Positions 1,974 through 20,898 of a stretch of 64,000 nucleotides of DNA are shown one piece after another. Within the stretch, counting starts at the first letter, position 1, and each line of letters opens with the position of its first letter. Source of the DNA: Hyphomicrobiales bacterium (GTDB lineage: Bacteria; Pseudomonadota; Alphaproteobacteria; Rhizobiales; Rhizobiaceae); NCBI GenBank assembly GCA_900472295.1, contig UCIA01000021.1:29702-93701 (forward strand), in the 5' to 3' direction. Position numbers and translations under genes: made by a program. The notes below the pieces were generated by a model. The model saw nothing but the letters and a program-made list of their open reading frames with translations, ran no database searches and was not told the origin of the DNA.

Positions 1974-2098
1974 CTGGACCAGTTTAGTTGAAACGCTCAA
2001 TTTGGCCAATCTGGTAGGACCAGAATATCCGAATGTTCGGCGATGACGACTTGGTGACTGCCTGCTGAAGCTGTTTCCCCTGTTTCTGGCTGGACCAG
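1974..2098. promoter_or_regulatory. Divergent promoter region with two GntR/FadR-type operator candidates
   Basis: The 372-base gap (1814-2185) between the divergent binding-protein and M24 genes holds CTGGTAGGACCAG at 2011-2023, a perfect palindrome with five-base arms around three bases, and CTGGCTGGACCAG at 2086-2098 with one arm mismatch. A compact CTGGACCAG also lies at 1974-1982. The form matches the TNGTNNNACNA consensus known for FadR-subfamily GntR regulators. The same motif recurs near 6820, 6996, 20706 and 20886. Binding is inferred. Confidence 0.6.
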
Positions 2099-2185
2099 AG
2101 CGAGTAAAATGGTGCAGATTTGATCGACAGCCGAGGGATCGGGCGCTGCGCGGCCGGCGATCCTACTGAAATCAGGGAGAGAACA

Positions 2186-3376
2186 ATGAACATTGCCCCG
2201 GGCAAGAGTGCCGTCAGCAATATCCCGTTCGACCAGGCAAGGGTCGACCGGTTGATGGAGGAAGCCGGCATCGATGTGCTGCTGGCGACCTCCAAGCACA
2301 ACACGCAATATCTGCTCGGCGGCTACAAGTTCATCTTCTTCGCCGCCATGGATGCGATCGGCCACAGCCGCTATCTGCCTGTCGTCGTCTATGAGAAAGG
2401 CGGGCCTGATCATGCCGCCTATATCGGCAACCGCATGGAAGGCGCGGAACACCAGAACAACCCGTTCTGGACGCCGACGCTGCATGCGGAATGCTGGGGC
2501 ACGCTGGATGCCGCCAATCTGGCGGTCGAGCATGTCAGAAAGATCGGCAAGGCAGGCGCCCGCATCGGCATCGAGCCGGCCTTCCTGCCGTCCGATGCCT
2601 ATGCGCTGATCCGCAAGGCGCTGCCAGACGCCAAGCTGATCGACGCGACCGGCATGCTGGAGAGCATGCGCGCCATCAAGACCGACGCCGAGCTGGAGAA
2701 GCTGCGCATCGCGTCCGAGCTGATCACTGATTCCATGCTGGCGACCATCCAGTGGGCGCGCGAAGGCACGACCAAGGCCGAGATCATCGAGCATCTGCGG
2801 CGCGAGGAAACCAATCGCGGCGCGCATTTCGAATATTGCCTGCTGACGCTGGGCTCCAGCCACAACCGCGCGGCGTCACCGCAGGCGTGGAAAAAGGGCG
2901 AGGTGCTGTCGATCGATTCCGGCGGCAATTATCACGGCTATATCGGCGATCTTTGCCGGATGGGCATTCTGGGCGAACCGGATGCCGAGCTGGAAGATCT
3001 GCTGGCCGAAGTGGAGACGGTGCAGCAGGCGGCCTTCTCCAAGGTCAAGGCAGGCACAATCGGCGGCGACATGATCTCGCATGCCGAGGGTGTGCTGAAG
3101 GCCTCCAAGGTCGCGCCCTATACGGACTTCTTCGCCCACGGCATGGGGTTGATCACGCATGAAGCGCCGTTCCTGATGACCAACCATCCGGTGACCTATG
3201 AAGGCACCTACGCGGCCAAGCCGCTGGAGACCAACATGGTGCTGTCGGTGGAGACAACCATGCTCCATCCGACGCGGGGGTTCATCAAGCTGGAGGATAC
3301 GCTGGCGGTGACGGATACGGGCTATGTGATGTTTGGGGATAGGGCTCGGGGGTGGAATAGGGGTGGGATTTCCTAA
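2186..3376 (+). CDS. M24 family metallopeptidase (Xaa-Pro aminopeptidase/creatinase-like)
   Basis: This 396-residue protein has a creatinase-type N-terminal domain followed by a pita-bread M24 catalytic domain. The five expected metal ligands can be seen: D244 and D255 (in a DSGG...YIGD segment), a histidine in HGMGLITHE near 318-326, and two glutamates in LSVETT and IKLEDT further on. Relatives cleave X-Pro bonds or hydrolyse small amidines such as creatine, so this may act on a small molecule rather than a peptide. ATG 2186 is preceded by AGGGAGAG. It diverges from the family 5 binding protein across a region with two operator-like palindromes, hinting at joint uptake and hydrolysis. Confidence 0.88.
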   Translation: MNIAPGKSAVSNIPFDQARVDRLMEEAGIDVLLATSKHNTQYLLGGYKFIFFAAMDAIGHSRYLPVVVYEKGGPDHAAYIGNRMEGAEHQNNPFWTPTLHAECWGTLDAANLAVEHVRKIGKAGARIGIEPAFLPSDAYALIRKALPDAKLIDATGMLESMRAIKTDAELEKLRIASELITDSMLATIQWAREGTTKAEIIEHLRREETNRGAHFEYCLLTLGSSHNRAASPQAWKKGEVLSIDSGGNYHGYIGDLCRMGILGEPDAELEDLLAEVETVQQAAFSKVKAGTIGGDMISHAEGVLKASKVAPYTDFFAHGMGLITHEAPFLMTNHPVTYEGTYAAKPLETNMVLSVETTMLHPTRGFIKLEDTLAVTDTGYVMFGDRARGWNRGGIS

Positions 3377-3394
3377 GGCCGAAAAGTCGGCGCC

Positions 3395-3532
3395 GCCCCT
3401 CATCCGCCTGCCGGCACCTTCTCCCCGTAGAACGGGGAGAAGAAGGCAGCTTGGGCGATTTGCGAAACCATCGATGACAGCGTCTTTCTCCCCGTTCTAC
3501 GGGGAGAAATGTCCGGTAGGACAATGAGGGGC
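3395..3532. repeat. Palindromic intergenic mosaic element
   Basis: This element of about 138 bases is bounded by GCCCCTCAT (3395-3403) and its inverse ATGAGGGGC (3524-3532). Inside are two near-perfect hairpins, TTCTCCCCGT/ACGGGGAGAA type, one near each end. It fills the convergent gap between the M24 gene and the cupin gene. The design matches RIME-like elements known in rhizobia. It could also end both transcripts. Confidence 0.75.
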
Positions 3533-3550
3533 AGCGCTGCCCTTGAAAGG

Positions 3551-3967
3551 TTACTTCCCCGCCGGGATCAGCCTGAAATCCGGCAGTTCCCGCAGCACCA
3601 GTTCCGGCCCGGCCGGCGAATAGACGACGAAGAGCTGCATCGGCCCATCGCCCGTATTCAGCGTCGAATGGAAACGGCTTTCCGGCACATAGATGGTGCA
3701 GCCGGGGCCGACCTTGGCGACCACTGGATTGCCCTGCTCGTCCTCGACCATCTGCTCGCCGTTCCCCGAAATAACGAAGATGATTTCTTCCGCGCCGGGA
3801 TGGTTGTGGCGGGTGTGGCCCTGGCCTGAGGGCAGGTCGACGACGCCGCCGGAAAAGCGTGTCGCGCCGTTCACTTCAGGCGCTACCGTCAGTGCCAGTT
3901 TGCCCCAGTCGAAGCCGAAGGCGCTGACGTCCTTCGGGTATACGAACACCTTGCTCTTGTCGGTCAT
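3551..3967 (-). CDS. Cupin domain-containing protein
   Basis: This 138-residue protein is a single-domain cupin. The first motif, HTRHNHPGAEE, offers H54, H56 and E60 and the second offers H100 (SRFHST), the usual 3-His/1-Glu metal set of small cupin isomerases, dioxygenases and sensors. A glycine-rich GNGEQ turn sits between. ATG 3967 lies three bases after the TIM-barrel gene upstream, so the two are co-transcribed, with the Tm-1-like gene before them. Its reaction is not known. Association with the Tm-1-like pair suggests a small-molecule catabolic step. Confidence 0.85.
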   Translation of the reverse strand: MTDKSKVFVYPKDVSAFGFDWGKLALTVAPEVNGATRFSGGVVDLPSGQGHTRHNHPGAEEIIFVISGNGEQMVEDEQGNPVVAKVGPGCTIYVPESRFHSTLNTGDGPMQLFVVYSPAGPELVLRELPDFRLIPAGK

Positions 3968-3970
3968 CTC

Positions 3971-4825
3971 TCATCCCTTCTTTTTCTTCTGGTCGTGCAG
4001 CGTGACGGCCTTGAAATCGGCAGTCTGCCTGGCGATCGCGGCTTCCGCCGGCAACCGTTCCATCGAGCTCGCGCCGTAGAAGCCATGCAGGCCTTTGCAG
4101 CGGTCGAGGATGTAGCGGGCGTCCTCCGGCATCGAGATCGGGCCGCCATGACAAAGCAGGATGACGTCCTTTCGCACCGAGCGCGCCGCATTTGCGATGG
4201 CGTCGATCTCGACAACGCAGTCGTCGAGCGACTTGGCCGACGTCGCGCCGATCGAGCCGCCGGTGGTCACCCCCATATGGGCAACGATGATGTCGGCGCC
4301 GGCGTTGGTCATCGCGCGGGCCTCTTCGGGATTGAAGACATAGGGCGTGGTCAGAAGATCGAGCTTGTGCGCCTCGGCGATCATGTCGACCTCGAGCCCG
4401 AAGCCCATGCCGGTTTCCTCGAAACTCTGGCGCATGCTGCCGTCGAACAGGCCGATGGTGGGAAAATTCTGGACGCCGGAAAAGCCCATCGTCTTCAGCT
4501 CGGCCAGAAGCAGCGGCATGATGACGAAGGGATCGGTGCCATTGACGCCGGCCAGCACCGGCGTCTTCTTCACCACCGGCAGCACCTCATAGGCCATTTC
4601 CTTGACGATCTCGTTGGCATTGCCATAGGCGAGCAGCCCGGCGGCTGAGCCGCGCCCGGCCATGCGGTAGCGGCCGGAATTGTAGATGATGATGAGGTCA
4701 ATGCCGCCGGCTTCCTCGGCCTTGGCCGACAGGCCGGTGCCGGCGCCGCCGCCGACGATCGGCACGCCGTCGGCGATCATGGCCTTGAATTTCTTCAGTA
4801 TGTCCTTGCGCGGTATTGCGGGCAT
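3971..4825 (-). CDS. TIM-barrel protein of the PEP hydrolase-like family (Tm-1 C-terminal half homologue)
   Basis: This 284-residue protein belongs to the TIM-barrel family usually annotated 'phosphoenolpyruvate hydrolase family protein'. Features include [12 protein letters not shown] near residues 25-36, [17 protein letters not shown], and [14 protein letters not shown], with CHGGPI near the C-terminal side of the barrel. The family corresponds to the C-terminal half of tomato Tm-1, while the gene just upstream (4836-6032) corresponds to the N-terminal half. ATG 4825 begins ten bases after that gene's stop, a tight operon. A frame extending to 4882 overlaps the upstream gene and is rejected. 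The true substrate is unknown; an aldolase-like role is possible. Confidence 0.85.
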
Positions 4826-4835
4826 TTGTTGGATC

Positions 4836-6032
4836 TCACTGGCTGGCGATGTCGAGGAAGGCCGCTGTCGCGGCCCTGGCAAATTCCGGATCGTTGATGT
4901 GCAGGGGCAGCCGCGTCAGGCGTCGCGTGGCGCTCGGCTGGATGGTGCGCTCGATGGCATCGAACAGGGCGGCGTCCGCCTCCGGGTCGAAAAACGCGCC
5001 GCCTTCTATGTCGAGTGCCGAGACGCCTTTTTCCGGGATCAGGAAATGCACGGGACCCTCGCAGCGGGTGAGCCTGGTGCCGATCCACTCGCCGATGCTG
5101 CGGCATTCATCCGCCGTGGTGCGCATCAGCGTGACGTTGGGATTGTGCTCGTAAAACAGCCGTCCGCGATATTTTTCCGGGATGGTCTGCGGCGCCCAGA
5201 AATTGACCATGTCGAGCGCGCCGACCGAGCCGACATAGGGCAGCTTCGTGCGGGCGATGGCGCCGAAGCGATCTTCCGTCGCCGGCAGCACGCCGCCAAA
5301 CAGCAGGTCGCAGATCTCCGTCGTGGTGATGTCGATGACGCCGGCGAGCAGCCCTGAGTCCGCGAGCTTCTCCATTGAGCGGCCGCCGGTGCCCGTGGCG
5401 TGGAAAACCATGCAGTCGTAGTTGGCCCGCAGCTGGTCGGCGATTGCCGTCACGCAAGGCGTGGTGACGCCGAACATGGTGAGCCCGAGCGCCGGCTTGC
5501 CGGTGGCAGTCGGCGCCGGCTTGGCAGCCATGCCGGCGATTGCCTGTGCAGCATTGTGCAGGACCGTGCGGGAGAGCCTGTTCAGTCCCGCCATATCGGT
5601 CACCGACGGCATCATGATGATGTCGGAAACGTCGACATAAGGTGCGGTGTCGCCGGAGGCGAGCGTCGAGACCATGACCTTGGGCAGGCCGAGCGGTAGC
5701 GCGCGCATGCCTGACGTGACGATCGAGGTGCCGCCGCCGCCGCCAATACCGATCACGCCCGCTATGTCGTCGCGCGACCGGATGAAGCTGGTGAAGGCAG
5801 CACTCATGCCGGCCACGGCCGTGCCACGGTCGTCTATGCCAAGCACGGCGCCGGCTCCGCCCGGATGGTGCGCCGCGACATCGCTGGCCGGAATATCGAC
5901 CGGCACGGTGGCGCCGCGCGTGCCGATGTCGGCGCGGGCAACCGGGCTGCCGGTCGCGGCAATCGCATCGGCCAGGAAGGCAAGTTCCTCGCCCTTGGTG
6001 TCGGCCGTGCCCACCACGTAGATGCGCTTCAT
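4836..6032 (-). CDS. Tm-1-like ATP-binding domain protein (UPF0261 family)
   Basis: This 398-residue protein starts [16 protein letters not shown], typical of the UPF0261/Tm-1-like ATP-binding family. Further on it has a glycine-rich [19 protein letters not shown] segment and [13 protein letters not shown], both family hallmarks. In plants the equivalent domain of Tm-1 binds ATP and inhibits tobamovirus replication; the bacterial role is not established and is probably metabolic. ATG 6032 follows AGGTGACC, a good ribosome site, so upstream in-frame ATGs to 6122 are not needed. It is first in an operon with the TIM-barrel and cupin genes, and is divergent from a TetR regulator that likely controls it. 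Confidence 0.88.
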
Positions 6033-6118
6033 TGGGGTCACCTGTCTGTCGGCCGGCTGAGCGGTGGCGCCATCCAGCGTTCTGGGACAGGCCATTGCAT
6101 TTTTTTGAGACGCGCGTA

Positions 6119-6132
6119 TCATATTGATATGA
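6119..6132. promoter_or_regulatory. TetR operator candidate overlapping the regulator's start codon
   Basis: TCATATTGATATGA is a perfect inverted repeat (TCATAT-TG-ATATGA) in the 96-base gap between the Tm-1-like gene and the divergent TetR gene. The ATG of the TetR gene (6129-6131) lies inside the right arm. Bound repressor could block both promoters and its own translation start. Binding is inferred from position and symmetry only. Confidence 0.45.
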
Positions 6133-6812: not shown

Positions 6813-6816
6813 CGCC

Positions 6817-7011
6817 AATCTGGTTCTACCAGATTTGCGCGATGGCCATTAATACTAATAGGAGTGCTGAGGCCCAAACAAGGCGTGTTCATATCAAGGA
6901 GTAGGAAAATTCAGATAAAACAGGCAGATACACCGGGAATCGGCTTGCCGGGCCGGTAGCTGACGCCCAAGAAAGAGCTTGACGCGTATCCAGAATTGGT
7001 AATACCAGATT
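6817..7011. promoter_or_regulatory. Promoter and paired GntR-type operators of the two-ATPase sugar importer
   Basis: The 360-base gap 6813-7172 contains AATCTGGTTCTACCAGATT (6817-6835), a perfect palindrome with eight-base arms, and AATTGGTAATACCAGATT (6994-7011). The second overlaps TAATAC (7000-7005), a likely -10 box, with CTTGAC at 6978-6983 as -35 (16-base spacer). The centres lie 176 bases apart, which would suit DNA looping. Repression by an FCD-type GntR protein is inferred from the TNGTNNNACNA-like form. Confidence 0.6.
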
Positions 7012-7172
7012 AGGACTGACACGGCGGATCGAAATGTGAGGGCTGCGATCCGTTTCCGGACAAGCGAGGAGGCTTGAACCGGAACGGTGCCATCACAGGA
7101 AGAACTACCAAGGCCGGCCTCGCAGCCGGCTCGCATGACAACGGTAGAATGCGCACAAGGGAGGAAACTATT

Positions 7173-8489
7173 ATGCGAAAGACAATGACCAGCATGCTTG
7201 CTGGTATCGGCCTGGTGCTCGCCTGCGGAACGTCCGCTTACGCACAGGACAAGGAACTCACCATATTCTGGGCTGAATGGGATCCGGCGAACTATTTGCA
7301 GGAACTCGTCAACCTTTACGAGGCCGAGAGCGGCGTGAAGGTCACGGTCGAAACCACGCCCTGGTCCGACTTCCAGACCAAGGCATTCACCGAGTTCAAC
7401 GCCAAGGGCAGTGCCTATGACATGGTGGTCGGCGACTCGCAGTGGATCGGCGCTGCATCCGAAGCCGGGCACTATGTCGACCTGACCGACTTCTTCAACA
7501 AACACAATCTGAAGGAGGTAATGGCGCCGGCCACTGTCAAGTACTACGCCGAATATCCGTCGGCCTCTGGCAAGTACTGGTCGATCCCGGCCGAGGGTGA
7601 CGCAGTCGGCTGGTCCTATCGCAAGGACTGGTTCGAAGACCCCAAGGAAATGGAAGCCTTCAAGGCCAAGTATGGCTATGATCTCGGCGTACCGAAGGAT
7701 TTCAAGGCGCTGCGCGACATTGCCGAATTCTTCCACCGTCCCGACCAGAAGCGCTACGGCGTCGCCATCTACACCGACAACTCATATGATGCCCTGGTGA
7801 TGGGCGTCGAGAACGCCATCTTCTCCTACGGCGGCGAACTTGGCGACTATGCCACTTACAAGGTCGACGGGATCATCAACTCCGAGCAGAACGTCAAGGC
7901 GCTCGAGATGTACAAAGAGCTCTATTCGTTCACCCCTCCAGGTTGGGCCAAGAGCTTCTTCATCGAGGACAACCAGGCGATCACCGAGAACCTGGCAGCG
8001 ATGAGCATGAACTACTTCGCCTTCTTCCCGGCGCTCATCAACGAAGCCTCGAACCCGAATGCCAAGAACACCGGCTTCTTCGCCAATCCTGCCGGTCCGA
8101 ACGGCGACCAGTTCGCCGCGCTCGGCGGCCAGGGCATCTCCGTCATCTCCTATTCCCAGAATAAGGAAGAGGCGATGAAGTTCCTGGAATGGTTCATCAA
8201 GGACGAGACGCAGAAGAAATGGGCGGAACTCGGCGGTTACACGGCAAGCGCCAAGGTGCTCGAGTCGCCTGAATTCCAGAACGCCACGCCTTACAACAAG
8301 GCTTTCTACGAAACCATGTTCAAGGTGAAGGACTTCTGGGCGACGCCGGAATATGCCGAGCTGCTCATCGCGATGAACCAACGCGTCTATCCGTACATCA
8401 CCGGCAACCAGGGCACAGCCAAGGAAGTGCTCGATTCGCTCGCTGCGGACTGGAACGCGACGTTCAAGAAATACAACCGCGTGAAGTAA
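7173..8489 (+). CDS. Carbohydrate ABC transporter substrate-binding protein (family 1)
   Basis: This 438-residue protein is a family 1 (MalE-like) periplasmic binding protein. A Sec signal peptide covers residues 1-25 (MRKTMTS, hydrophobic core, AYAQ cleavage). The mature part begins with KELTIFWAEWDPANYLQELV, the typical first strand and helix. The two permeases and two ATPases downstream form the rest of the importer. ATG 7173 has a strong GGGAGG site six to eight bases away. It is followed by a stem-loop at 8505-8530 that probably reduces expression of the downstream genes relative to this one. The solute is unknown; a sugar, polyol or glycerol-type compound is plausible. Confidence 0.92.
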   Translation: MRKTMTSMLAGIGLVLACGTSAYAQDKELTIFWAEWDPANYLQELVNLYEAESGVKVTVETTPWSDFQTKAFTEFNAKGSAYDMVVGDSQWIGAASEAGHYVDLTDFFNKHNLKEVMAPATVKYYAEYPSASGKYWSIPAEGDAVGWSYRKDWFEDPKEMEAFKAKYGYDLGVPKDFKALRDIAEFFHRPDQKRYGVAIYTDNSYDALVMGVENAIFSYGGELGDYATYKVDGIINSEQNVKALEMYKELYSFTPPGWAKSFFIEDNQAITENLAAMSMNYFAFFPALINEASNPNAKNTGFFANPAGPNGDQFAALGGQGISVISYSQNKEEAMKFLEWFIKDETQKKWAELGGYTASAKVLESPEFQNATPYNKAFYETMFKVKDFWATPEYAELLIAMNQRVYPYITGNQGTAKEVLDSLAADWNATFKKYNRVK

Positions 8490-8504
8490 ACGGGACTAAC
8501 GCTC

Positions 8505-8540
8505 GGAAGGGGTGGGAGCCCACCCCTTCCGTTTTCTTTT
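8505..8540 (+). terminator. Stem-loop with T-rich tail after the binding-protein gene
   Basis: GGAAGGGGTGGG pairs with CCACCCCTTCC across a short loop, followed by GTTTTCTTTT. It lies between the binding-protein and first permease genes, so is likely a partial terminator or RNA stabiliser setting higher binding-protein output. Confidence 0.75.
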
Positions 8541-8559
8541 CCAAAGGAAGGAACTGGCT

Positions 8560-9465
8560 TTGGCCACTGCAGTCATGACCACGCTGGATCCCAACTCGCG
8601 CTCCGCCGCCCGCGGCATGAGCGACCTCACGATCCGAAATCTCTTCATCATTCCGACGATCGTTTTCCTGATCGTCTTCAATATCTTTCCACTGCTCTAT
8701 TCGCTCGGTTATTCGTTCACCGACTTTCGCGCGTCGAGCCCGGCGCCGGCCAATTTCGTTGGACTGCAGAACTATCGCGAACTGCTCAACGACCCATTCA
8801 TCTGGTCGAATTTCGCCATCACCGCCAAATATGTCATCGTCTCCGTGGTCGGCCAGGTCATCGTCGGCTTTGGCGTGGCGTTGCTGCTCAACCGCGATAT
8901 CCCGCTGAAGGGTCTGCTGACGACACTGCTGCTGTTGCCGATGATGCTGTCGATGGCCGTCGTCGGTCTGTTCTGGAAACTGCTCTATGATCCATCATGG
9001 GGTGTCATCAACTATGCACTCGGCCTCGGCAATTTCGAGTGGCTGTCCAACCCCGACATGGCGCTCTACGCGGTTGCCATCACCGACATCTGGATGTGGT
9101 CGCCCTTCGTCATGCTGCTGTCGCTTGCCGGCCTGTCGGCAGTGCCGAAGCACCTCTACGAGGCGGCGGCGATCGATCGCGCCGGTTCGTTCTATACCTT
9201 CTTTCGCATTACGCTGCCGCTGGTCGCGCCGATTCTGATGATCGCGATCATCTTTCGCACCATGGAGGCGTTCAAGACCTTCGATCTCGCCTACATCCTG
9301 ACCAGCCAGCCAACCACCGAGGTGATCTCGATCCGGCTCTACAAGATGGCGTTCCAGGAATGGCAGACCGGGCGCTCCTGCGCGCTCGCCTACATCGTGC
9401 TGATCATGGTGCTGGCTATCACCAACATCTACGTCAAATACCTCAACAAGGTGAAGGAGCGCTGA
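8560..9465 (+). CDS. Sugar ABC transporter permease (MalF-like)
   Basis: This inner-membrane permease of about 301 residues has six predicted hydrophobic helices, beginning LFIIPTIVFLIVFNIFPLLYS, and the EAA loop contacting the ATPase (YEAAAIDRAGSFYTFFRITLP). It pairs with the permease directly downstream. The start is taken as TTG 8560, which follows AAGGAAGG; ATG 8575 is an alternative. An in-frame start at 8512 would sit inside the upstream stem-loop and is rejected. It is the second gene of a six-gene importer operon and the stop is one base before the next ATG. Confidence 0.88.
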   Translation: MATAVMTTLDPNSRSAARGMSDLTIRNLFIIPTIVFLIVFNIFPLLYSLGYSFTDFRASSPAPANFVGLQNYRELLNDPFIWSNFAITAKYVIVSVVGQVIVGFGVALLLNRDIPLKGLLTTLLLLPMMLSMAVVGLFWKLLYDPSWGVINYALGLGNFEWLSNPDMALYAVAITDIWMWSPFVMLLSLAGLSAVPKHLYEAAAIDRAGSFYTFFRITLPLVAPILMIAIIFRTMEAFKTFDLAYILTSQPTTEVISIRLYKMAFQEWQTGRSCALAYIVLIMVLAITNIYVKYLNKVKER

Positions 9466-9466
9466 G

Positions 9467-10426
9467 ATGGCCGCCGTCCGCACTTCTTCCGAAATCGGGT
9501 TCAATCGCGTCGCCATCGTCGCCGTCCTGCTGGTGACGATAATCTTTCTCGCGCCGATCTACTGGATTGCCTCGACGGCGTTCAAGCCGCGCAACCTCGC
9601 CACCACGATCCCGCCGACGGTGGTGTTCCAGCCGGAGATATCGCCCTTCGTCAAGCTGTTCACCAAGCGCTCGCAACTGCGCAGCGCGCCGACGCCGGAA
9701 GAGTATGCGGCAGCGCCCTGGTGGGAGCGCGTCGTCTTCGACGGTGGTGAAAAGATCGTGCGCGACGGCAAGGGCCAGGTGCAATGGTCCGGCTATCCGA
9801 GTCGCTTCATGAACTCGCTGATCGTGGCCATAACGTCGACAGTGCTGGCAGTCGGCATGGGCACCTTCACCGCCTACGGCTTCTCGCGCTTCAAGGTGAA
9901 GGGAGAGGCGGACCTGCTCTTCTTCATCCTGTCAACGCGCATGCTGCCGCCGGTGGTGGTGGCGATCCCGATGTTCCTGATGTACCGGGCCGTCGGCCTC
10001 AACGACACGCACTGGGGCCTGATCATCCTCTACACCGCCTTCAACCTCAGCTTCTCCGTATGGCTTATGAAGGGGTTCATGGACGAAATTCCGAAGGAGT
10101 ACGAGGAGGCAGCGTTGGTCGACGGTTACACGCGCATGGAGGCGTTCTTCAAGATCGTGCTGCCCGAGGCCGCCACAGGCATCGCCGCCACAGCCGTGTT
10201 CTGCTTCATCACAGCGTGGAACGAATATGCCTTCGCGCTGATCATGACCAACCGACGCGCGCAGACGGCGCCGCCCTTCATCCCCAGCCAGGTCGGTTCC
10301 GGCCTGCCGGACTGGACGGTGATTGCCGCCGGAACCTTCCTGTTCCTGCTGCCGGTCGCCATCTTCACCTTCCTGCTGCGTAACCACCTTCTGCGCGGCA
10401 TGTCCTTCGGAGCGATCCGCAAATGA
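9467..10426 (+). CDS. Sugar ABC transporter permease (MalG-like)
   Basis: This 319-residue inner-membrane permease resembles MalG. A first helix (VAIVAVLLVTIIFLAPIYW) is followed by a long periplasmic stretch of about 80 residues, then the transport helices. The EAA loop (YEEAALVDGYTRMEAFFKIVLP) is present. The N-terminal periplasmic segment, with PEISPFVKLFTKRSQLRS, is longer than in MalG and is seen in glycerol/polyol-type importers. The gene starts one base after the upstream stop and its own stop overlaps the start of the 73-residue membrane protein gene. Confidence 0.9.
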   Translation: MAAVRTSSEIGFNRVAIVAVLLVTIIFLAPIYWIASTAFKPRNLATTIPPTVVFQPEISPFVKLFTKRSQLRSAPTPEEYAAAPWWERVVFDGGEKIVRDGKGQVQWSGYPSRFMNSLIVAITSTVLAVGMGTFTAYGFSRFKVKGEADLLFFILSTRMLPPVVVAIPMFLMYRAVGLNDTHWGLIILYTAFNLSFSVWLMKGFMDEIPKEYEEAALVDGYTRMEAFFKIVLPEAATGIAATAVFCFITAWNEYAFALIMTNRRAQTAPPFIPSQVGSGLPDWTVIAAGTFLFLLPVAIFTFLLRNHLLRGMSFGAIRK

Positions 10427-10644
10427 GCTTTCGAGCCATCAACCAGAAATATCTCGAACCCGGCTCGCAGATCCTGATGGTGCTCGGCATCATCGCGCTC
10501 TGCCAACCCTGGAACCTGCTGCTGCACCGCTACGGCGTGACCATCATCCTGATCGGCCTGATCGGCTTCAACATCACGTCGAAGATCGCACCGGAGGAGA
10601 AGGCCGGCACCGGACAGACGGGAAATCCGGGAGCACAGCATTGA
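10423..10644 (+). CDS. Small membrane protein embedded in the ABC importer operon
   Basis: This 73-residue protein has two hydrophobic segments (ILMVLGIIALCQPWNLLL and GVTIILIGLIGFNITS) and a charged C-terminal tail. It overlaps the upstream permease by four bases (ATGA) and its stop overlaps the TTG start of the ATPase, so it is translated within the operon. No family is recognised. The position recalls the small GlpU protein in the glycerol importer GlpSTPQV of Rhizobium, but sequence similarity cannot be claimed. It may assist assembly of a transporter with two non-identical ATPases. Confidence 0.75.
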   Translation: MSFRAINQKYLEPGSQILMVLGIIALCQPWNLLLHRYGVTIILIGLIGFNITSKIAPEEKAGTGQTGNPGAQH

Positions 10645-11744
10645 CCCAGATCGAGCTTCGCGGCGTCCAGAAATATTTCGGCGCCGTCCAGGTCATCAAG
10701 GACCTCAACCTCAAGATCGCAGACAATGAGTTCATCGTGCTGCTCGGCCAGTCCGGCTGCGGCAAGACGACGACGTTGCGCGCCATTGCCGGGCTGGAGA
10801 CGATCGACGAAGGCGATATCCTCATCGACGGCAAGCCGGTCCAGCATCTCAAGGCCGCCGACCGCGACATCGCCATGGTGTTCCAGTCATTCTCGCTCTA
10901 TCCGCATATGAGCGTCTACGAGAACATTGCCTTCCCCTTGCGCGCCACGCGCAAGAGCAAGGCCGAGATCGATAGCGAGGTTCGCTCCGTTGCCAAGACG
11001 CTGCAGATCACCGAGCTGCTGGCCAAAAAGCCGTCGGCGCTGTCGGGCGGCGACATGCAGCGCGTCGCCATCGGCCGGGCGCTGGTGCGGCGTCCGAAGG
11101 CGATGCTGATGGATGAGCCGATCGGCGCGCTCGACGCCAAGCTGCGCGAGGAAATGCGGGCCGAGATCAAGCGGCTGCACATCAAGCAGGGCTCGACCAC
11201 AATCTATGTCACGCACGACCAAATCGAGGCGATGAGCCTCGCCGACCGCATCGTCATCATGCATGAAGGCGTGCTGCAGCAGGTCGGCTCGCCGGACGAG
11301 GTCTATTCGCGGCCGGCCAATCTGTTCGTGGCGCAGTTTGTCGGCAGCCCGGTGATGAACGTCGCCGATGCGGCGGTCACCGAGACAGCATCGTCGGCCT
11401 CGGTCACTGTAGGCGGTGCGGCCACCGGGTTCGAATTTCCGCGCGCGCTTTTATCCAAGCTCAACGGTCATGCCGGCGGCCAGTTGGCGCTGGGCATAAG
11501 GCCCGAAGGCGTGCTGGTGCGCCACGAGGCGGCGGAAGGCTTCGTGCCGGTCGAGACGCAGATCGTCGAGCCGCTCGGCTCCTTCGACATTGTCGACCTC
11601 AAGGTCGGCACCAAAATGCTGCGTGCCCGCACCAAGAGCGGCTTCGTCGGCGGCCCCGGCGAAAAGGTCTTCGCCAGGATCGATCCCACGCAGGCACATT
11701 TCTTCGACACGGCAAGCGGCAAGTCGCTCGAGGTGAGGCTCTGA
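10641..11744 (+). CDS. Sugar ABC transporter ATP-binding protein, first of two
   Basis: This 367-residue ATPase is of the MalK/UgpC type. It has Walker A GQSGCGKTT (residues 36-44), Q-loop Q82, signature LSGGDMQR (134-141), Walker B AMLMDEP with E159, and the H-loop in VTHDQIEAM, followed by a C-terminal OB-fold regulatory domain of about 130 residues. The start is TTG 10641, overlapping the stop of the small membrane protein (TTGA); no ATG is available before the Walker A region. A second, distinct ATPase gene follows, so the transporter probably uses a heterodimer. Confidence 0.9.
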   Translation: MTQIELRGVQKYFGAVQVIKDLNLKIADNEFIVLLGQSGCGKTTTLRAIAGLETIDEGDILIDGKPVQHLKAADRDIAMVFQSFSLYPHMSVYENIAFPLRATRKSKAEIDSEVRSVAKTLQITELLAKKPSALSGGDMQRVAIGRALVRRPKAMLMDEPIGALDAKLREEMRAEIKRLHIKQGSTTIYVTHDQIEAMSLADRIVIMHEGVLQQVGSPDEVYSRPANLFVAQFVGSPVMNVADAAVTETASSASVTVGGAATGFEFPRALLSKLNGHAGGQLALGIRPEGVLVRHEAAEGFVPVETQIVEPLGSFDIVDLKVGTKMLRARTKSGFVGGPGEKVFARIDPTQAHFFDTASGKSLEVRL

Positions 11745-12847
11745 TGGCGCATATCCAGCTCAAGAATATTTCCAAGAGCTTCGGCAACCATACCGCGCTG
11801 ACAGGGCTCAATCTCGACATCGCCGATGGCGAGTTCTTCGTGCTGCTCGGCGAGACAGGCGCCGGCAAGACGACGACGCTGCGCATGATAGCCGGTCTGG
11901 AAAAACCGACGGAAGGCCAGGTGTTCATCGACGGCGTCGATGTCGCCGACTGGGGTGCGGCCGAGCGCGACGTGGCGCTGGTGCTGCAGCAATATTCGCT
12001 CTATCCGCGCTACACAGTGCGCGAAAACCTCGAATTCCCGCTGAAGCCGAAGATCCGCCGGTTGCCGGATGCCGAGATCAAGGACCGCGTTGCGCGCGCC
12101 GCCAAGACACTGCGGATCGAGCATCTGCTCGACCGCAAGACCGATCGTCTTTCGGGCGGCGAGATGCAGCGCGTCTCGATCGGCCGCGCCATCGTGCGCA
12201 AGCCGCGCGTGTTCCTGATGGATGAGCCGCTGTCGGCGCTCGACGCCAAATTGCGTGAGGCGCTGCGCACGGAACTGAAGAACCTGCAGATACAGCTCGG
12301 CGCCACTTTCCTGTTCGTCACCCACGACCAGATCGAGGCGATGTCGATGGGCGACAAGGTCGGCGTGCTCAACCATGGCCGCATCGTCCAGACCGGCACG
12401 CCGCACGAAATCTACAACAATCCGCGTGACACCTATGTGGCGAGCTTCGTCGGCTCGCCGCCGATGAACCTCATCGACGGCAGGCTGATCAACAACCGCG
12501 CGGTGATGGCGCCGATGAATTTCGAGCTGCCGCTTTCGGGAGGAGCCAAGGGTTTCGGAGGGGCGAAGACAGGCGCTGCCACGGAAGGGCGCCCGCTCGT
12601 CTTCGGCATCCGTCCGGAGGACGTCTATCTGGAGAGCGGCGCGCCGGTCGAGGCACGCGTCCACGACGTCGAAAACCATGGCGTGGAAAAGATCCTGACT
12701 CTACGGGTCGGCGACACGACGCTGCGCGCCACGGTGTCGGCAAGGACCGATGTGGCGATCGAGCAATCGGTGCGCTTTGCCTGGAACGCGGACAAGGTGG
12801 TGCTGTTCGACAAGGGCAGCGGGGTTAGCTTGCGCCACGCCAGCTAA
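11744..12847 (+). CDS. Sugar ABC transporter ATP-binding protein, second of two
   Basis: This 367-residue MalK-like ATPase has Walker A GETGAGKTT (residues 36-44), signature LSGGEMQR (136-143), Walker B VFLMDEP with E161, H-loop VTHDQIEAM and a C-terminal regulatory domain. Its start codon shares a base with the upstream stop (TGATG). Both catalytic sets are intact, unlike heterodimers with one degenerate site. The paired-ATPase arrangement is known for rhizobial polyol/glycerol importers, which gives a weak hint about substrate class. Confidence 0.9.
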   Translation: MAHIQLKNISKSFGNHTALTGLNLDIADGEFFVLLGETGAGKTTTLRMIAGLEKPTEGQVFIDGVDVADWGAAERDVALVLQQYSLYPRYTVRENLEFPLKPKIRRLPDAEIKDRVARAAKTLRIEHLLDRKTDRLSGGEMQRVSIGRAIVRKPRVFLMDEPLSALDAKLREALRTELKNLQIQLGATFLFVTHDQIEAMSMGDKVGVLNHGRIVQTGTPHEIYNNPRDTYVASFVGSPPMNLIDGRLINNRAVMAPMNFELPLSGGAKGFGGAKTGAATEGRPLVFGIRPEDVYLESGAPVEARVHDVENHGVEKILTLRVGDTTLRATVSARTDVAIEQSVRFAWNADKVVLFDKGSGVSLRHAS

Positions 12848-14469: not shown

Positions 14470-14471
14470 AG

Positions 14472-14819: not shown

Positions 14820-14944
14820 CAGTCTCTTCCTATCGCTGGCAGGTGCAAATACACGCTGGCCGGGTTATCCCTTCCGCAGCCGAACGGCCCACATGAGCTG
14901 TTCTGCTTTAAAGACGCTCCACCTTGACGGAATCCGACATCGAC

Positions 14945-16243: not shown

Positions 16244-16256
16244 TCGGCGTTCACCG

Positions 16257-16646
16257 TCAGCGCGACGAGCAGTGCTTGCGTTCGCTGTCCTTGGCGGTGC
16301 GCAGGATGCCGGTCGCGACCAAGGTCGGCAGGCTGTATTGCTTGCCGTTGAAACTATGCGACCTGTTCTCGATCGTACCCGTGACAACGAGCTTGCCGGC
16401 ATAGAGCTTGTCGGCGAGGTCGAGCGCCTTGTCCTGCTGCGGCAGGCCGTCAGTATCGACCCAGACGCCCTTGGCGACCTTGCCGGTGGCGAGGTCGAGC
16501 GCGCTGGTGGAAGGGCAGGGCGCCATAACACAATCCAGGCCGTTGTCGCAGGGCACGTAGCTGCCTTGGCCATCGGCTTGAGCGTCAGTCACCGCCACGC
16601 AGGTGCCGGCAATCAGAACAAGAATTTTTGCGACGCTCTTCGCCAT
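16257..16646 (-). CDS. Small secreted protein of unknown function
   Basis: This 129-residue protein has a Sec signal peptide (MAKSVAKILVLIAGTCVAVTDAQA) and a mature domain with four or more cysteines (VPCDNGLDCVMAPC near the start, KHC near the end) that could form disulfides. No known family is recognised. ATG 16646 is chosen over a TTG at 16667. It is tail to tail with the amidase gene, with a gap of only 13 bases. Confidence 0.7.
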   Translation of the reverse strand: MAKSVAKILVLIAGTCVAVTDAQADGQGSYVPCDNGLDCVMAPCPSTSALDLATGKVAKGVWVDTDGLPQQDKALDLADKLYAGKLVVTGTIENRSHSFNGKQYSLPTLVATGILRTAKDSERKHCSSR

Positions 16647-16699
16647 GGCGGCGAAGATCGTCGCCAAATCCGCGAAAATTGAGGCGGCTTGCGGAACCG

Positions 16700-17677
16700 T
16701 TAGTCGGCCGGAAACCGCCTGCGGTAATGCTCGACCACGTCGGGGTTGCGCAAATTGACCGGCAGCCGGTTGGCCAGCACCAGGAGCGTCTCGCCGGCAG
16801 CACCCACGCCCATGCGCATCATCGACTGCTCGGTAATGCCGGCCATATGCGGAGTGACGATGACGTTGTCGAAACCGAAATAGGGATGATTTGCGGGCAG
16901 CGGCTGGGTGGCAAAGACGTCGAGCGCGGCGCCGCCGATGCGGCTCTTGCGCAAGGCCTCGATCAGCGCCTCATCGTCGATCACCGGCCCGCGCGAAATG
17001 TTGATCAAAAGCGCATCCGGCTTCATGCGCGCAATGCGTTCGCGGCTGATCAGGCCGCGCGTTTCCTCGGTCAGCGGGCAGCACAGCACGATGATGTCGC
17101 TCTGCTCGACCAGCGCGTCGATCGACAGGAAGCCGATCCTGTCGGGCGCCGGCTGCATGCTGCGCGTCGTTGCCACGACGTTGAGCCCGAAGCCGTGCGC
17201 GGCGATATGGGCGACGGCCTGGCCGATGGCGCCGAAGCCGATGATGCCAATGGTCTTGCCGGCGAGTTCGCTGGCATGGCTGGCGTGGTCGCGGCCGGCA
17301 TTCCAGCCCTTGGCGCGCAGGTCGCCGTCGACTGAACGGAAGCGGCGAAGCAAAGCGAGCGCTGCGAACATCACATATTCGGCGACCGAGCGCGCATTGA
17401 CCGCCGGCACGTTGGCGACCAACACACCGGCCGCGGCAGCCGCCTCCATCGGCACCATGTCGAGGCCGGCGCCGTGGCGGACCGCGGCCCTGAGTTTGGT
17501 CGCGTGTTCGAACAGCGCCGGCGGCAGCGGCGCGCGCACGATGATGACGTCGGCGTTCCTGGCCTCGTTGGTCAGCGTGGCGGCATCGAGCGCCGAGGCA
17601 ACGACGAGTTCGCCGGCGCCAGCCAGCATGGCGGAGGCACGCGGATGCAGCGTGTGCGTCGACAGGATTCTGGGCAT
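16700..17677 (-). CDS. D-isomer-specific 2-hydroxyacid dehydrogenase
   Basis: This 325-residue NAD(P)-dependent dehydrogenase has the Rossmann motif GFGAIG (147-152) and the active-site R229 (NISRGP) and H277 (TPHMAG). The glutamate that normally pairs with the histidine is Q258 (FATQPLP), with the same 19-residue spacing to histidine as the Gln/His pair of formate dehydrogenase. Members reduce 2-keto acids such as hydroxypyruvate or phosphohydroxypyruvate. It lies upstream-to-downstream after the GntR regulator and the enolase-superfamily gene, so may work in sugar-acid breakdown. A repeat at 17696-17769 separates it from the regulator. Confidence 0.88.
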   Translation of the reverse strand: MPRILSTHTLHPRASAMLAGAGELVVASALDAATLTNEARNADVIIVRAPLPPALFEHATKLRAAVRHGAGLDMVPMEAAAAAGVLVANVPAVNARSVAEYVMFAALALLRRFRSVDGDLRAKGWNAGRDHASHASELAGKTIGIIGFGAIGQAVAHIAAHGFGLNVVATTRSMQPAPDRIGFLSIDALVEQSDIIVLCCPLTEETRGLISRERIARMKPDALLINISRGPVIDDEALIEALRKSRIGGAALDVFATQPLPANHPYFGFDNVIVTPHMAGITEQSMMRMGVGAAGETLLVLANRLPVNLRNPDVVEHYRRRFPAD

Positions 17678-17695
17678 GGGGCTCTCGTTTTTAGT

Positions 17696-17769
17696 CGCAA
17701 TTCCCTAGGGAAAGCGCTGCGCGCTTTTCACGGGAAAACCGTTTTCACACTTTTCCTGGAATTACTCTA
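17696..17769 (-). repeat. Stop-codon-linked hairpin repeat, copy 1
   Basis: Read on the minus strand, the sequence begins with TAGAGTAATTCCAGGAAAAG, continues through CGGTTTTCC and ends with GGAATTGCG. The outer AATTCC and GGAATT can pair. A close copy lies at 62907-62955. In both copies the first three bases TAG are the stop codon of the adjacent minus-strand gene. Copy 1 carries an extra inner palindrome built on AAAGCGC. Confidence 0.75.
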
Positions 17770-18483
17770 GACCTTCTCGAGTGCCAGGCTTTGCACTTGC
17801 GCCTCCCGGCCCTCGATGATCCCTTTCCAGTAGCTTTCCGCGCCCTGCAGATGGGCGTTCATCAGCGCCTGGGCGAGATTGCCGTCGCGGCGCAGCAGCG
17901 CCTCGTAGATCTGGATGTGCTCGGCATGCGAGCGCACGCTACGCTCGGGATCGTTGAAGTAGATCGGCAGCCGCTGCTCGCCCATCAGATAGTAGACGCT
18001 GCAGATGTTGTGGAAGACCCCGTTCTTGGTCGCTCGCACGATCTCGAGGTGGAATTCGCGGTCCTCCTTGGCGAGGCCTTCGCCGGCGGCGATGCGCTCC
18101 TCCGAGGCCTTGAGTATCTCGCGCAGGCGTTCGAAATTCTCTTCGGTGGCGCGCGAGCAGGCAAGCTCGGCGGCCTTGATCTCGTGGATCTTGCGCAGCT
18201 CGACGGTCTCGTAAATCTGCACCGGATCAAGCGGCAGGCCGGCGCGGGCGAAAAGGGCCAAGGCTTCGACGCTGGCCTGCCTGGTGTCGACATAGATGCC
18301 GGATTTGGCGCGGCGCTCGACGATGCGCATGGCTTCGAGAATGGCCAACGCCTCGCGGATCTGGCCGCGGCTGACGCTGAAATGCTCCGCCAGTTCGCGC
18401 TCCGATGGCGTGCGGCCGGTCTCGTTGTCCGAATGGGAGAACAGATAGGCGGCGAGTTCGGCGAGAAGGTTCTTTTCTTTCAT
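17767..18483 (-). CDS. GntR family regulator, FadR/FCD subfamily
   Basis: This 238-residue regulator has an N-terminal winged helix at about residues 20-66 (RTPSERELAEHFSVSRGQIREAL) and a C-terminal FCD ligand domain with the conserved DREFH and later histidines expected to hold a metal or bind an organic acid. FCD regulators typically bind TNGTNNNACNA palindromes and sense sugar acids or carboxylates. Such sites occur in front of several nearby operons, making this their candidate regulator. ATG 18483 is chosen; TTG 18489 is in frame. Its start overlaps the enolase-superfamily gene end, so the two are co-transcribed. Confidence 0.88.
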   Translation of the reverse strand: MKEKNLLAELAAYLFSHSDNETGRTPSERELAEHFSVSRGQIREALAILEAMRIVERRAKSGIYVDTRQASVEALALFARAGLPLDPVQIYETVELRKIHEIKAAELACSRATEENFERLREILKASEERIAAGEGLAKEDREFHLEIVRATKNGVFHNICSVYYLMGEQRLPIYFNDPERSVRSHAEHIQIYEALLRRDGNLAQALMNAHLQGAESYWKGIIEGREAQVQSLALEKV

Positions 18484-18485
18484 CG

Positions 18486-19661
18486 TCAACCGCGTTGCGC
18501 GTGCGCCTCCAGGAACCGCTCTGAAATGGTGAATCCCAGACCCGGCTTTTCGGGGATCGCTATCATACCGTCCTTTGCTTCGACAGTCTCTTCGATAAGA
18601 TCGTGGATCATCGGGTTGGCGCCGAGCGAATATTCGACCGTGAAGCTAGCCGGCGAAGCAGCGCAAACATGCAGTCCGGCGAAGAAACACGGTGCGCCGG
18701 CCCACAGATGCGGCGCAAAGCGCAGATTGAAGGCGCTGGCGATGGTGCCGATCTTGATGGCTTCGCTGATGCCGCCGCAGAAGGCCGGATCGGGCTGGAA
18801 GATGTCGGCCGATTTCAGCACGGCGAGATCGCGGAAGGCGTAGCGCGTCGCTTCGCTTTCGCCGGTGGCGATCGGGATCGATCCGGAGGCGCGCACCTCG
18901 GCCATGCCTGACTTGTCGTCGGCAATGACCGGCTCCTCGAACCAGGCGAGGTCGAGGTCGGCAGTCAGCTGGATGAAGCGCTTGGCTTCGGCCACCGTAT
19001 AGGTGCCGTGGGCGTCGACCATCAGCTCGACATCAGGGCCGAGCGCCTGTCTGGCGGCGCGAACGCGGGTGGCGGAAATATGCGGGGCGCCGTCCATGGC
19101 GCCGACGCGCATCTTCAGCGCCTTGAAGCCTCCCTTGGCGATGTAGGATTTGAGCTGTTCGCCGATGGCGTCGGCGGCGGCCCAGCCGCCGGAGGCGTAG
19201 GCTTGCATGCGGTCGAGCTTGCGGCCGCCGATGAGCCGCCACACCGGCTGCCCAAGCGACTTGCCCAGAATATCCCAGAGCGCGATATCGACCGCGCTGA
19301 TTGCCGCAATGCTCATGCCGCGCCGCGCCAGTTGCGGCATGGCATGGCCGGCGCGCGCGGCACTGTCATGTCGCACGCCGTTGTAGAGCATTTCCCAGAT
19401 GATGCCGATGTCGGCGGGGTCGCGGCCGATCAGCTGCGGCCCAACCTCGTGGTTCAGCATGTGGACCAGCGCACCATAACTGCCGGCGCTGCCGGCGGCG
19501 TTCTTGCCCTCGCCCCAGCCGATCAGCCCGTCATCGGTCTCGATGCGTAAAATGGCGGCGTCGAACGTCGTCACCTGACCGAAGTCGCTGCGATGCTGCT
19601 TCGCGGCTTCGATCGGTATGCTGACCCACCAGGCCTGGACGTTTCTGATGCGCATGGTCAT
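18486..19661 (-). CDS. Mandelate racemase/muconate-lactonizing enzyme family protein
   Basis: This 391-residue enolase-superfamily enzyme has metal ligands D216 (VDAHGT), E242 or E243 (WFEEP) and E268 (TGESE), and the H318/D291 dyad of the mandelate racemase subgroup (APHLW, QPDPAF). The usual KxK on the second strand reads K183-M-R185. Members dehydrate or racemise sugar acids; with the neighbouring 2-hydroxyacid dehydrogenase and epimerases, a sugar-acid dehydratase is the best guess. The start could be ATG 19661 or ATG 19655. Confidence 0.87.
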   Translation of the reverse strand: MTMRIRNVQAWWVSIPIEAAKQHRSDFGQVTTFDAAILRIETDDGLIGWGEGKNAAGSAGSYGALVHMLNHEVGPQLIGRDPADIGIIWEMLYNGVRHDSAARAGHAMPQLARRGMSIAAISAVDIALWDILGKSLGQPVWRLIGGRKLDRMQAYASGGWAAADAIGEQLKSYIAKGGFKALKMRVGAMDGAPHISATRVRAARQALGPDVELMVDAHGTYTVAEAKRFIQLTADLDLAWFEEPVIADDKSGMAEVRASGSIPIATGESEATRYAFRDLAVLKSADIFQPDPAFCGGISEAIKIGTIASAFNLRFAPHLWAGAPCFFAGLHVCAASPASFTVEYSLGANPMIHDLIEETVEAKDGMIAIPEKPGLGFTISERFLEAHAQRG

Positions 19662-19712
19662 CCCCGGCCCCGCCGCCGGCAGGCGGAAGGGCGCATTTCC
19701 AAATCGGATCGG

Positions 19713-20600
19713 CTACTTGATCAGCGGCAGCAGCGTTTCGGCGGTGATGCGCATCTGGTCGGTGTAGAATTTCTCCGTCAGCACGCTGGAGCCGTGGTCC
19801 TGGATGAACTTCAGCTGTTCGGGCGAAATGTCGACCGGATTGCGCTCGACCATGTCTGGATAGGGCGCGGCGGGTGTGCGGTCGACGGGCGCGACGAACT
19901 CATTGGTCAGCGCGCCGTCATAGCCGACTTCCTTCAGCGTCTGCACGATCCGTGGCCAGTCGATCTGGCCGAGGCCGGCAGCAAAGCGGTTGTTGTCGGC
20001 GACGTGGAAGTCGAACAGCCGTTTGCCGACCTGGCGGATCGCGTCATGGACGTTAAATTCTTCCATATGGATGTGGTAGGCGTCGAGGCAGACGCCGCAT
20101 TCGGGGCTGACCGCATCGGCCAAAGCCAGCGCTTGCGCGCCGCGGTTGAACAGATAGGTCTCGAAGCGGTTGAGCGGCTCGACCGCGATCTTGACGCCGA
20201 CCTTCTTGGCATGGGTGAAGCACTCGCGGGTGGCGTCGACCACCCACTTCCATTCCTCTTCCTCGGTGCCATCCGGCACCACCTTGCCGACCGTGGCGGG
20301 CACCAGCGTGATGATCTCGCCGTCGAGTTCGCTGACCATGGTCAACACGTCCTTGACGTACTGCACCGAGCGTTCGCGCTGGCCCTGGTCCCTGGCGGCC
20401 AGATTGCGTTCACCCAGCATCAACGTCACCGAACCCCAGCAGCGGATGCCGTGTTCTTTCAGCAGCGCGCGGGTCTCCTTGGTCTTGTATTGCTCGGGCT
20501 CGCCGGAAATCTCGATCGACTCGTAGCCGAACTTCTTGATGCGCTTCAGCGTCACCTCCAACGGCTCCGCGCGCATCCAGTTGTGCGTCGAAAGATGCAT
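19713..20600 (-). CDS. Sugar isomerase/epimerase, D-tagatose 3-epimerase-like TIM barrel
   Basis: This 295-residue TIM-barrel protein shows the metal and catalytic set of ketose 3-epimerases: E141 (VEPLNRFE), D173 (CLDAYH), H199 (FDFHVADN) and E234 (TNEF). Their spacing (32, 26, 35) is nearly identical to E152, D185, H211 and E246 known in D-tagatose 3-epimerase. It probably epimerises or isomerises a ketose or keto-acid. ATG 20600 has a good GGAAGGA site. It is first in a minus-strand run with the enolase-superfamily, regulator and dehydrogenase genes, and is divergent from a second epimerase operon across shared operators. Confidence 0.88.
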   Translation of the reverse strand: MHLSTHNWMRAEPLEVTLKRIKKFGYESIEISGEPEQYKTKETRALLKEHGIRCWGSVTLMLGERNLAARDQGQRERSVQYVKDVLTMVSELDGEIITLVPATVGKVVPDGTEEEEWKWVVDATRECFTHAKKVGVKIAVEPLNRFETYLFNRGAQALALADAVSPECGVCLDAYHIHMEEFNVHDAIRQVGKRLFDFHVADNNRFAAGLGQIDWPRIVQTLKEVGYDGALTNEFVAPVDRTPAAPYPDMVERNPVDISPEQLKFIQDHGSSVLTEKFYTDQMRITAETLLPLIK

Positions 20601-20705
20601 GGTCTATCCTTCCCAGAATTCGTCTGTGCCAGTTCGCCTGCGATGCGCCCCACCGAGGCGCGTCGCGTGTTTCCTCCCCAAGGCGCTCCAGCGTTTTTGC
20701 ACAAA

Positions 20706-20898
20706 CTGGTTCGACCAATTGGGCCCGAATGGAGGTCTACAGCAATTTTTGTCGCGCGGCAAGAACTGCCGTTGTGCGACAACGGCAACCGTTTACTGTA
20801 TTGATTATGCTGGAATATATCGCTCAAACCCAATCACCGTATCGGCTTTGGACGGGAGTCAAATGGCTTGACCCAATTTCGATATTTGGTAATACCAG
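20706..20898. promoter_or_regulatory. Divergent promoter region with three GntR-type operator candidates
   Basis: The 400-base gap 20601-21000 holds CTGGTTCGACCAA (20706-20718), a nine-base-arm palindrome TGCCGTTGT-GCG-ACAACGGCA (20767-20787) and TTGGTAATACCAG (20886-20898). The last overlaps TAATAC (20890-20895), a likely -10 box for the rightward operon, with CTTGAC (20867-20872) 17 bases upstream as -35. The first and third lie 180 bases apart, like the 176-base pair at 6820 and 6996. The middle one also fits TNGTNNNACNA through TTGTGCGACAA. Confidence 0.6.

Follow-up and report, generated by a model that had tools for sequence, protein, structure and literature searches.

Paired probable operators and a candidate FCD/GntR repressor in a rhizobial gene cluster of putative sugar-acid metabolism

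Results and discussion

A stretch of 64,000 nucleotides from a Hyphomicrobiales bacterium of the Rhizobiaceae (assembly GCA_900472295.1, contig UCIA01000021.1, positions 29,702 to 93,701; hereafter the window) carries palindromes of the form YTGGTNNNACCAR in three promoter gaps. Judged from sequence and conservation, these palindromes are very probably the operators of the FCD/GntR protein encoded at 17767-18489, which would act as an autoregulated repressor of one regulon for sugar-acid uptake and catabolism; this estimate leaves aside DNA looping, which is weighed separately below. The regulon would comprise the operon of ISO1, an MR_MLE enzyme, the FCD regulator and a dehydrogenase, the divergent ISO2 operon and a two-ATPase importer headed by a family-1 binding protein (SBP1), and probably also the divergon of an M24 hydrolase and a family-5 binding protein (SBP5). 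The inducer is guessed, from the enzymes encoded, to be a sugar acid or keto acid.

Palindromic sites in three promoter gaps

Exact copies of YTGGTNNNACCAR start at 2011, 6820, 6996, 20706 and 20886, and the window holds no further perfect copy. Five copies compare with 0.06 expected by chance, and none of 100 shuffles gave five. All five are intergenic and confined to three promoter gaps, i.e. between the SBP5 and M24 genes (2011), between a TetR-type gene and the importer operon (6820 and 6996) and between two divergent epimerase-type operons (20706 and 20886). A first-pass annotation of the window had listed six palindromes of one form, all in promoter gaps. Each sequence was recovered at its position and the gap placement is borne out for every perfect copy, but the shared form holds for five of the six, the palindrome at 2086 having one mismatch. 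The latter is kept in all six aligned sequences of its gap (the window and five same-genus sequences, one of the five reading CTGGCTAGACCAG). The sites, none of which is assigned a strand, are:

2011..2023: operator CTGGTAGGACCAG, M24/SBP5 gap; kept in same-genus loci, one reading CTGGTAATACCAG
2086..2098: imperfect operator-like palindrome CTGGCTGGACCAG with one mismatch, M24/SBP5 gap
6820..6832: upstream operator of the importer pair, CTGGTTCTACCAG, 7 bp past the TetR-type stop codon
6996..7008: promoter operator of the importer pair, TTGGTAATACCAG, partner at 176 bp; covers a -10-like TAATAC
20706..20718: operator CTGGTTCGACCAA, ISO1 side of the divergent epimerase gap, from sequence and conservation
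20886..20898: operator TTGGTAATACCAG, ISO2 side of the epimerase gap, partner at 180 bp; covers a -10-like TAATAC

The whole genome (6.45 Mb, with the window at C61:29702-93701) was scanned by exact pattern rather than by matrix and gave 24 copies as compared to 36 for a reversed control pattern. Thus, the motif is not enriched genome-wide, and the signal is local to the cluster. The motif being equally common inside genes had been named as an outcome that would speak against one operator family. This is not so in the window, whereas genome-wide 18 of the 19 outside copies lie within an open reading frame of 300 nt or more, by a six-frame count that is permissive and takes in spurious frames. 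After inspection of these 19 sites a genome-wide regulon was rejected. Two of the outside copies deserve mention. At C36:214502 (L007), TTGGTTAAACCAA stands at the start of a reading frame holding another FCD domain and is probably the operator of that FCD protein itself. At C61:136257-136269 (L017, TTTTTGGTAGGACCAGAAG), about 105 kb from the 2011 site, a lone TTGGTAGGACCAG with an A/T-rich left flank lies in a gap-like stretch and is a possible extra site of the regulon.

Conservation within the genus

Thirty-one same-genus loci were fetched via regulator orthologs of at least 90% identity; L085, which holds a 36% homolog and neither the neighbour genes nor a site, was excluded from the counts. 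All 31 loci hold the epimerase pair, and all 28 that extend to the importer gap hold the importer pair (L055, L061 and L078 end short of it). Start-to-start distances are 180 bp for the epimerase pair and 176 bp for the importer pair. With the window included, the span is exactly 193 bp in 32/32 epimerase gaps and 189 bp in 29/29 importer gaps. The sites carry 1.92-2.00 bits per position, in contrast to 0.73 (epimerase) and 0.97 (importer) for the spacer interiors, values that exclude about 30 bp flanking each site. The spacers are of fixed length and mostly free sequence. The 20706 site lies 101-108 bp from the ISO1 start, a variable distance in contrast to the constant one between the sites. 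Between the importer operators, positions 6889-6930 form a block that is strongly conserved in the genus (ATCAAGGAGTAGGAAAA...AAAACAG.CAGATA).

In the window the M24 gap has a single perfect site, and of 14 genomes examined, 11 have a perfect site before M24. Of the loci in the earlier proposal of one regulon, the M24/SBP5 divergon is the weakest member. In five same-genus genomes without a regulator ortholog (G005, G006, G013, G520 and G537) no ISO1 match was found apart from one of 27%, and the permease has a 56% relative in three and none at threshold in two. These absences suggest that the module comes and goes together.

Such conservation bears on the trivial explanation that the palindromes are unrelated products of chance or composition, the two TTGGTAATACCAG copies being alike merely through a shared -10 element. 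The identical copies do share a -10-like constraint, and the missing genome-wide enrichment would fit as well. Still, five copies were found where 0.06 were expected, and the sites are near-invariant over many genera in poorly conserved surroundings. A chance origin was rejected on these grounds and is hardly credible.

Co-occurrence of sites and regulator across the family

The analysis was extended to 247 genomes of the family with a pair pattern that allows a gap of 155-183 bp (166-194 bp start to start). The pattern was found in 50 genomes (27 of 109 genera) and its reversed control in nine. A regulator ortholog of at least 67% identity is encoded in 48 of the same 247 genomes, and the pair is present in 47 of these 48 as compared to three of the 199 without an ortholog (Fisher test, uncorrected for kinship); the ortholog of G148 was counted from a partial hit at a contig end. 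The one ortholog genome that lacks the pair is G103, whose contig starts within ISO1 (L173), and the three with the pattern and no regulator are G116, G255 and G299. Eight of the 199 remaining genomes carry regulator homologs of 54-61% identity, and in seven of the eight a perfect pair at shorter spacing precedes ISO1; they were scored negative because the gap limit misses such pairs. Among ten loci of distant homologs (52-61% identity, L162-L171), nine show a perfect pair before ISO1 and L167 shows one perfect site. L170 and L171, which come from other families, are among those that keep the pair.

Before ISO1, 72 of 74 genomes (27 of 28 genera) have two or more perfect sites; before SBP1, two or more are present in 54 of 60 genomes (19 of 21 genera) and at least one in all 60. 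It should be noted that many loci in these two counts had been picked by the pair pattern, whereas the 247-genome test was not so selected. Phylogenetic footprinting and co-occurrence in 247 genomes together support the initial suggestion of one operator family joining three loci.

The FCD/GntR regulator and its probable action in trans

The candidate reader is encoded as follows:

17767..18489, minus strand: FCD/GntR (FadR-type) regulator, candidate reader of all sites, from Pfam and ortholog co-occurrence

Translation starts at TTG 18489 or ATG 18483, so that the gene overlaps or abuts the end of the upstream MR_MLE gene. Co-transcription with that gene, from the promoter next to the 20706/20886 pair, is therefore very likely, and we infer that the regulator represses its own operon. 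Both Pfam matches exceed their cut-offs (FCD 1.1e-23, 84.4 bits; GntR 3.2e-11, 43.1 bits), and the domain order, a winged helix-turn-helix (HTH) GntR domain followed by FCD, is that of the FCD/FadR subfamily. Residues D143, H147, H191 and H213 in the FCD domain and R31 in the HTH domain are invariant in 37 sequences. The former four are taken to form the Asp/His metal site that many FCD domains contain. By our reading of the sequence, R31 would be the Arg at the position that is paired with the G of TKGT in PMC4494728.

An AlphaFold single-chain model of the regulator has a mean predicted local distance difference test (pLDDT) score of 85 and shows six main helices and an extra helix at 74-82 after the linker, in a block of pLDDT 71-75. 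Its fold matches cover both the seven-helix (FadR) and the six-helix (VanR) groups, and the nearest folds include PmiR, a Brucella GntR protein, NanR, DhdR, FadR and Atu1419. The ortholog on pSymA of Sinorhizobium meliloti is 82% identical, and most plasmids with a related regulator belong to Sinorhizobium or Rhizobium.

The two pairs need not be neighbours. In 11 of 30 genomes, among the matches listed, they are separated, lying on two contigs in seven genomes and 41-82 kb from each other in four. This separation is indicative of a trans-acting reader. In L072 the importer binding protein was not found behind the pair and the transporter genes are 41-43% identical, with both sites and the 176-bp spacing remaining; L170 and L171 have a different transporter operon divergent to ISO1, with no TetR-type gene found in the locus, and again the pair remains. 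Sites that outlive their neighbours in this manner argue for a diffusible reader. (In L072, where these transporter genes were matched at 2917-4328, the first matched stretch holds one in-frame stop codon.) Together with footprinting and co-occurrence, separated pairs and sites kept where neighbours differ lend support to the FCD regulator, which the first-pass annotation had put forward at 17767-18483 as the nearest candidate.

A different protein might read the sites, be it the TetR-type protein encoded at ~6150-6812 or another FCD protein, 35 of which are encoded in the genome. The TetR-type gene stops 7 bp ahead of the 6820 site and is kept with the importer in most loci fetched, and the FCD gene at L007 has TTGGTTAAACCAA at its start. 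Against this, the epimerase pair stays in L165, L166, L169, L170 and L171, where the TetR-type gene was not found, and L122 retains the importer pair, likewise with no TetR-type gene found. Persistence of the pairs in such loci disfavours the TetR-type protein. Moreover, the FCD gene at 17767-18489, itself part of an operon behind the sites, is found together with ISO1 and the pair in the examined loci, and TGGTNNNACCA is a form of the consensus TKGT-N3-ACMA given for the FadR subfamily (PMC4494728). With co-occurrence computed for one of the 35 FCD proteins, another reader is regarded as improbable. A second FCD-domain gene of the window, at ~44022-44405 (C61:73723-74106), has no TGGTNNNACCA site nearby.

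Promoter context and proposed mechanism

Three promoters were inferred beside the paired sites:

6979..7005, plus strand: importer promoter, TTGACG (6979-6984), 15 bp, TAATAC (7000-7005) within the operator
20868..20895, plus strand: ISO2 promoter, TTGACC (20868-20873), 16 bp, TAATAC (20890-20895)
20734..20762, minus strand: ISO1 promoter, TTGCCG, 17 bp, TAGACC, with the 20706 operator just downstream

For the importer, TTGAC starts 17-19 bp ahead of the TGGT of the site in 60/60 unique contexts, and the promoter-side site contains TAATAC (55) or TACTAC (5). On the ISO2 side, TTGAC starts 18-19 bp ahead of TGGT in 60 of 74 unique contexts. As hexamer spacings of 15 and 16 bp are slightly short, the term "-10-like" is kept as an interpretation. 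On the ISO1 side, a strict TTGC..N17..TRGA pattern matches 37 of 74 unique contexts; in 36 of these the site follows after another 15-16 bp, and blocks of CTA and GCAAG are conserved across 20 genera. One operator of each pair thus covers a -10-like element, which speaks for repression. Near-fixed pairing, overlap with -10-like elements and a regulator gene inside the operon under the sites are observations that go beyond the first description of these palindromes.

The following sequence of events is proposed. When the inducer is absent, dimers of the regulator would occupy the sites at 6996 and 20886, on the -10-like elements of the importer and ISO2 promoters, as well as the partner operators 176-180 bp away, i.e. 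6820 and, just past the ISO1 promoter, 20706. Bridging of the dimers may close a loop of ~180 bp, perhaps aided by a bend in the middle of the spacer. The repressor would be released by a sugar acid or a 2-keto acid intermediate, which probably binds, together with a metal, to the Asp/His site in the FCD domain.

Spacing and the question of looping

The sites come as pairs at a near-fixed distance with mostly free sequence between them, as is looked for in a two-operator loop repressor; this was found within the genus, with a wider spread across genera. Whether two dimers are bridged into a DNA loop is close to an even bet, slightly in favour. The main competitor retains the same regulator and regulon but dispenses with the loop: each site would serve the nearby promoter, and the distance would reflect fixed promoter geometry. 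In the epimerase gap each site does adjoin its own divergent promoter, and among 100 FadR-type divergons that include a regulator gene, 71 have independent double sites, the commoner arrangement (Suvorova et al., PMC4494728). Conversely, no conserved promoter-like element was found beside the upstream site of the importer gap in a profile of 13 genera, yet the distance is 176 bp in 29/29 same-genus sequences. For most of its interior the epimerase spacer likewise keeps its length but not its sequence, and the ISO spacing has a standard deviation of 2.4 bp over 20 genera (hand-entered values, omitting distant homologs with 127-156 bp and using the outer pair of the three-site L118). Independent sites are given a considerable chance, albeit one that falls short of even.

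Several points weigh against the proposed repressor or its loop. No significant helical phase was detected across genera (best-period p 0.09 for ISO, 0.60 for the importer and 0.33 for both), in a test of low power on short hand-entered spacing lists, with 177 entered twice in the ISO list. Across the family the spacing ranges over 127-181 bp for the ISO pair and 65-190 bp for the importer pair. With no significant helical phase and so wide a range, strict same-face looping is unsupported, and both results agree with the loop-free alternative. As to the regulator itself, six of 60 genomes have a single perfect site before SBP1; co-occurrence is partly trivial, because the regulator adjoins one pair and the module is inherited together; and FCD proteins share similar sites, while co-occurrence was computed for the 17767-18489 protein alone among 35.

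The spacing variants include S. meliloti (L156), with an importer pair 167 bp apart and an ISO pair at 165 bp with one degenerate site. A natural variant with short spacing is found in genus g40 (L138, L150 and L151), where only 65 bp separate the importer sites and 170 bp the ISO sites. In genus g129 (L118, 5118-5305) the epimerase gap holds three perfect sites, 32 and 143 bp apart.

The middles of both spacers are A/T-rich and in this genus contain blocks resembling the binding consensus of the integration host factor (IHF):

6892..6904, plus strand: conserved mid-spacer block, IHF-like with one mismatch; weak outside the genus
20794..20806, minus strand: mid-spacer block, IHF-like with one mismatch; similar place and strand in some genera and not in others

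Against this consensus, the ISO spacers of 27 genera sum to 45 mismatches, in comparison to a minimum of 51 in 60 shuffles. The result is weaker for the importer spacers of 19 genera, where two of 60 shuffle sums were equally low, and matches in most single genera are unremarkable. An IHF-like bend in mid-spacer could relax helical phasing, though the matches are suggestive only. The complete picture, a FadR-type FCD repressor closing ~180-bp loops at two promoters, with length rather than sequence held over ~20 genera and possibly with bending by IHF, is put forward tentatively, at less than even odds.

Genes and operons beside the sites

The genes that flank the sites were assigned as follows:

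16700..20600, minus strand: operon of ISO1 (ketose 3-epimerase-like), MR_MLE dehydratase-type enzyme, FCD regulator and D-2-hydroxyacid dehydrogenase, from Pfam, NCBIfam and PDB sequence matches
20995..24324, plus strand: divergent operon of ISO2 (xylose-isomerase-like), Gfo/Idh/MocA oxidoreductase and a third isomerase-like protein, from Pfam
7134..12847, plus strand: importer operon of family-1 binding protein, two permeases and two MalK-type ATPases, from Pfam; N-terminus of the first gene uncertain
2186..3376, plus strand: M24 hydrolase, likely regulon member, from Pfam and the upstream sites described above
209..1855, minus strand: family-5 binding protein at the head of an Opp-type importer, possibly in the regulon, from Pfam; start uncertain

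The nearest solved proteins to ISO1 are D-tagatose/D-psicose 3-epimerases. The MR_MLE enzyme is closest to arabinonate and galactonate dehydratase models, with scores under their cut-offs. On the minus strand at 3971-6122, a UPF0261 protein and a PEP-hydrolase-like TIM-barrel protein are encoded side by side and adjoin the importer in many loci fetched; they look like bacterial equivalents, as separate proteins, of the two domains described for the plant Tm-1-like protein (PMC5028733), and their position beside the importer could help to find their function.

The cluster is widely conserved in rhizobia and lies on pSymA in S. meliloti. The SMa1354 "isomerase" (PMC12542648) may be an S. meliloti member. 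Systematic GntR mutagenesis in S. meliloti, as cited in PMC7950203, is reported to have given symbiotic defects for SMa0160 and SMa0222.

Comparison with known systems

The rhizobial cluster hereby gains a candidate regulator with candidate operators and a candidate regulon. The regulon was not found in the open-licence literature searched, which is no proof of its being unpublished. Many natural spacing variants are available for study of the use that GntR-type repressors make of paired operators and, if looping holds true, they would form a naturally replicated loop-length series (65, 127-156 and 165-190 bp) for one family member.

LldR of E. coli governs the lactate regulon. It resembles the present system in its FadR-subfamily site with GT-N3-AC spacing (PMC4494728) and in the looping suggested for it (Aguilera 2008, as cited in PMC7804116). 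Pairing of LldR sites gave no significant gain in the synthetic set-up of PMC7804116. Among FadR-subfamily divergons with a regulator gene, 29 of 100 showed a near-constant inter-site distance, which was read as co-operative control (PMC4494728). Here, a second pair stands at an operon without a regulator gene, and the term "Rhizobi" does not occur in the main text of that study.

PmiR (7xp0), DhdR (9jpj; labelled PdhR in the sequence table) and NanR (6on4) are among the nearest solved structures by both sequence and fold, albeit at 24-28% identity in the fold search. All three presumably use other ligands and sites.

A further parallel is Atu1419 of Agrobacterium fabrum, an FCD protein of the VanR group. 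In the fold search it is 17-20% identical to the present regulator, whose model has the extra helix 74-82, a feature described for the FadR group and here of modest model confidence. Its site, ATGTATACAT, and its hydroxycinnamic acid regulon differ as well (PMC7797058). Still, Atu1419 is likewise an FCD repressor with a pair of palindromes in its own promoter region, one over the -10 element, and electron microscopy showed its tetramer looping two palindromes 190 bp apart (PMC7797058). Looping at 190 bp in Atu1419 thus provides a precedent for looping at ~180 bp in the cluster described here.

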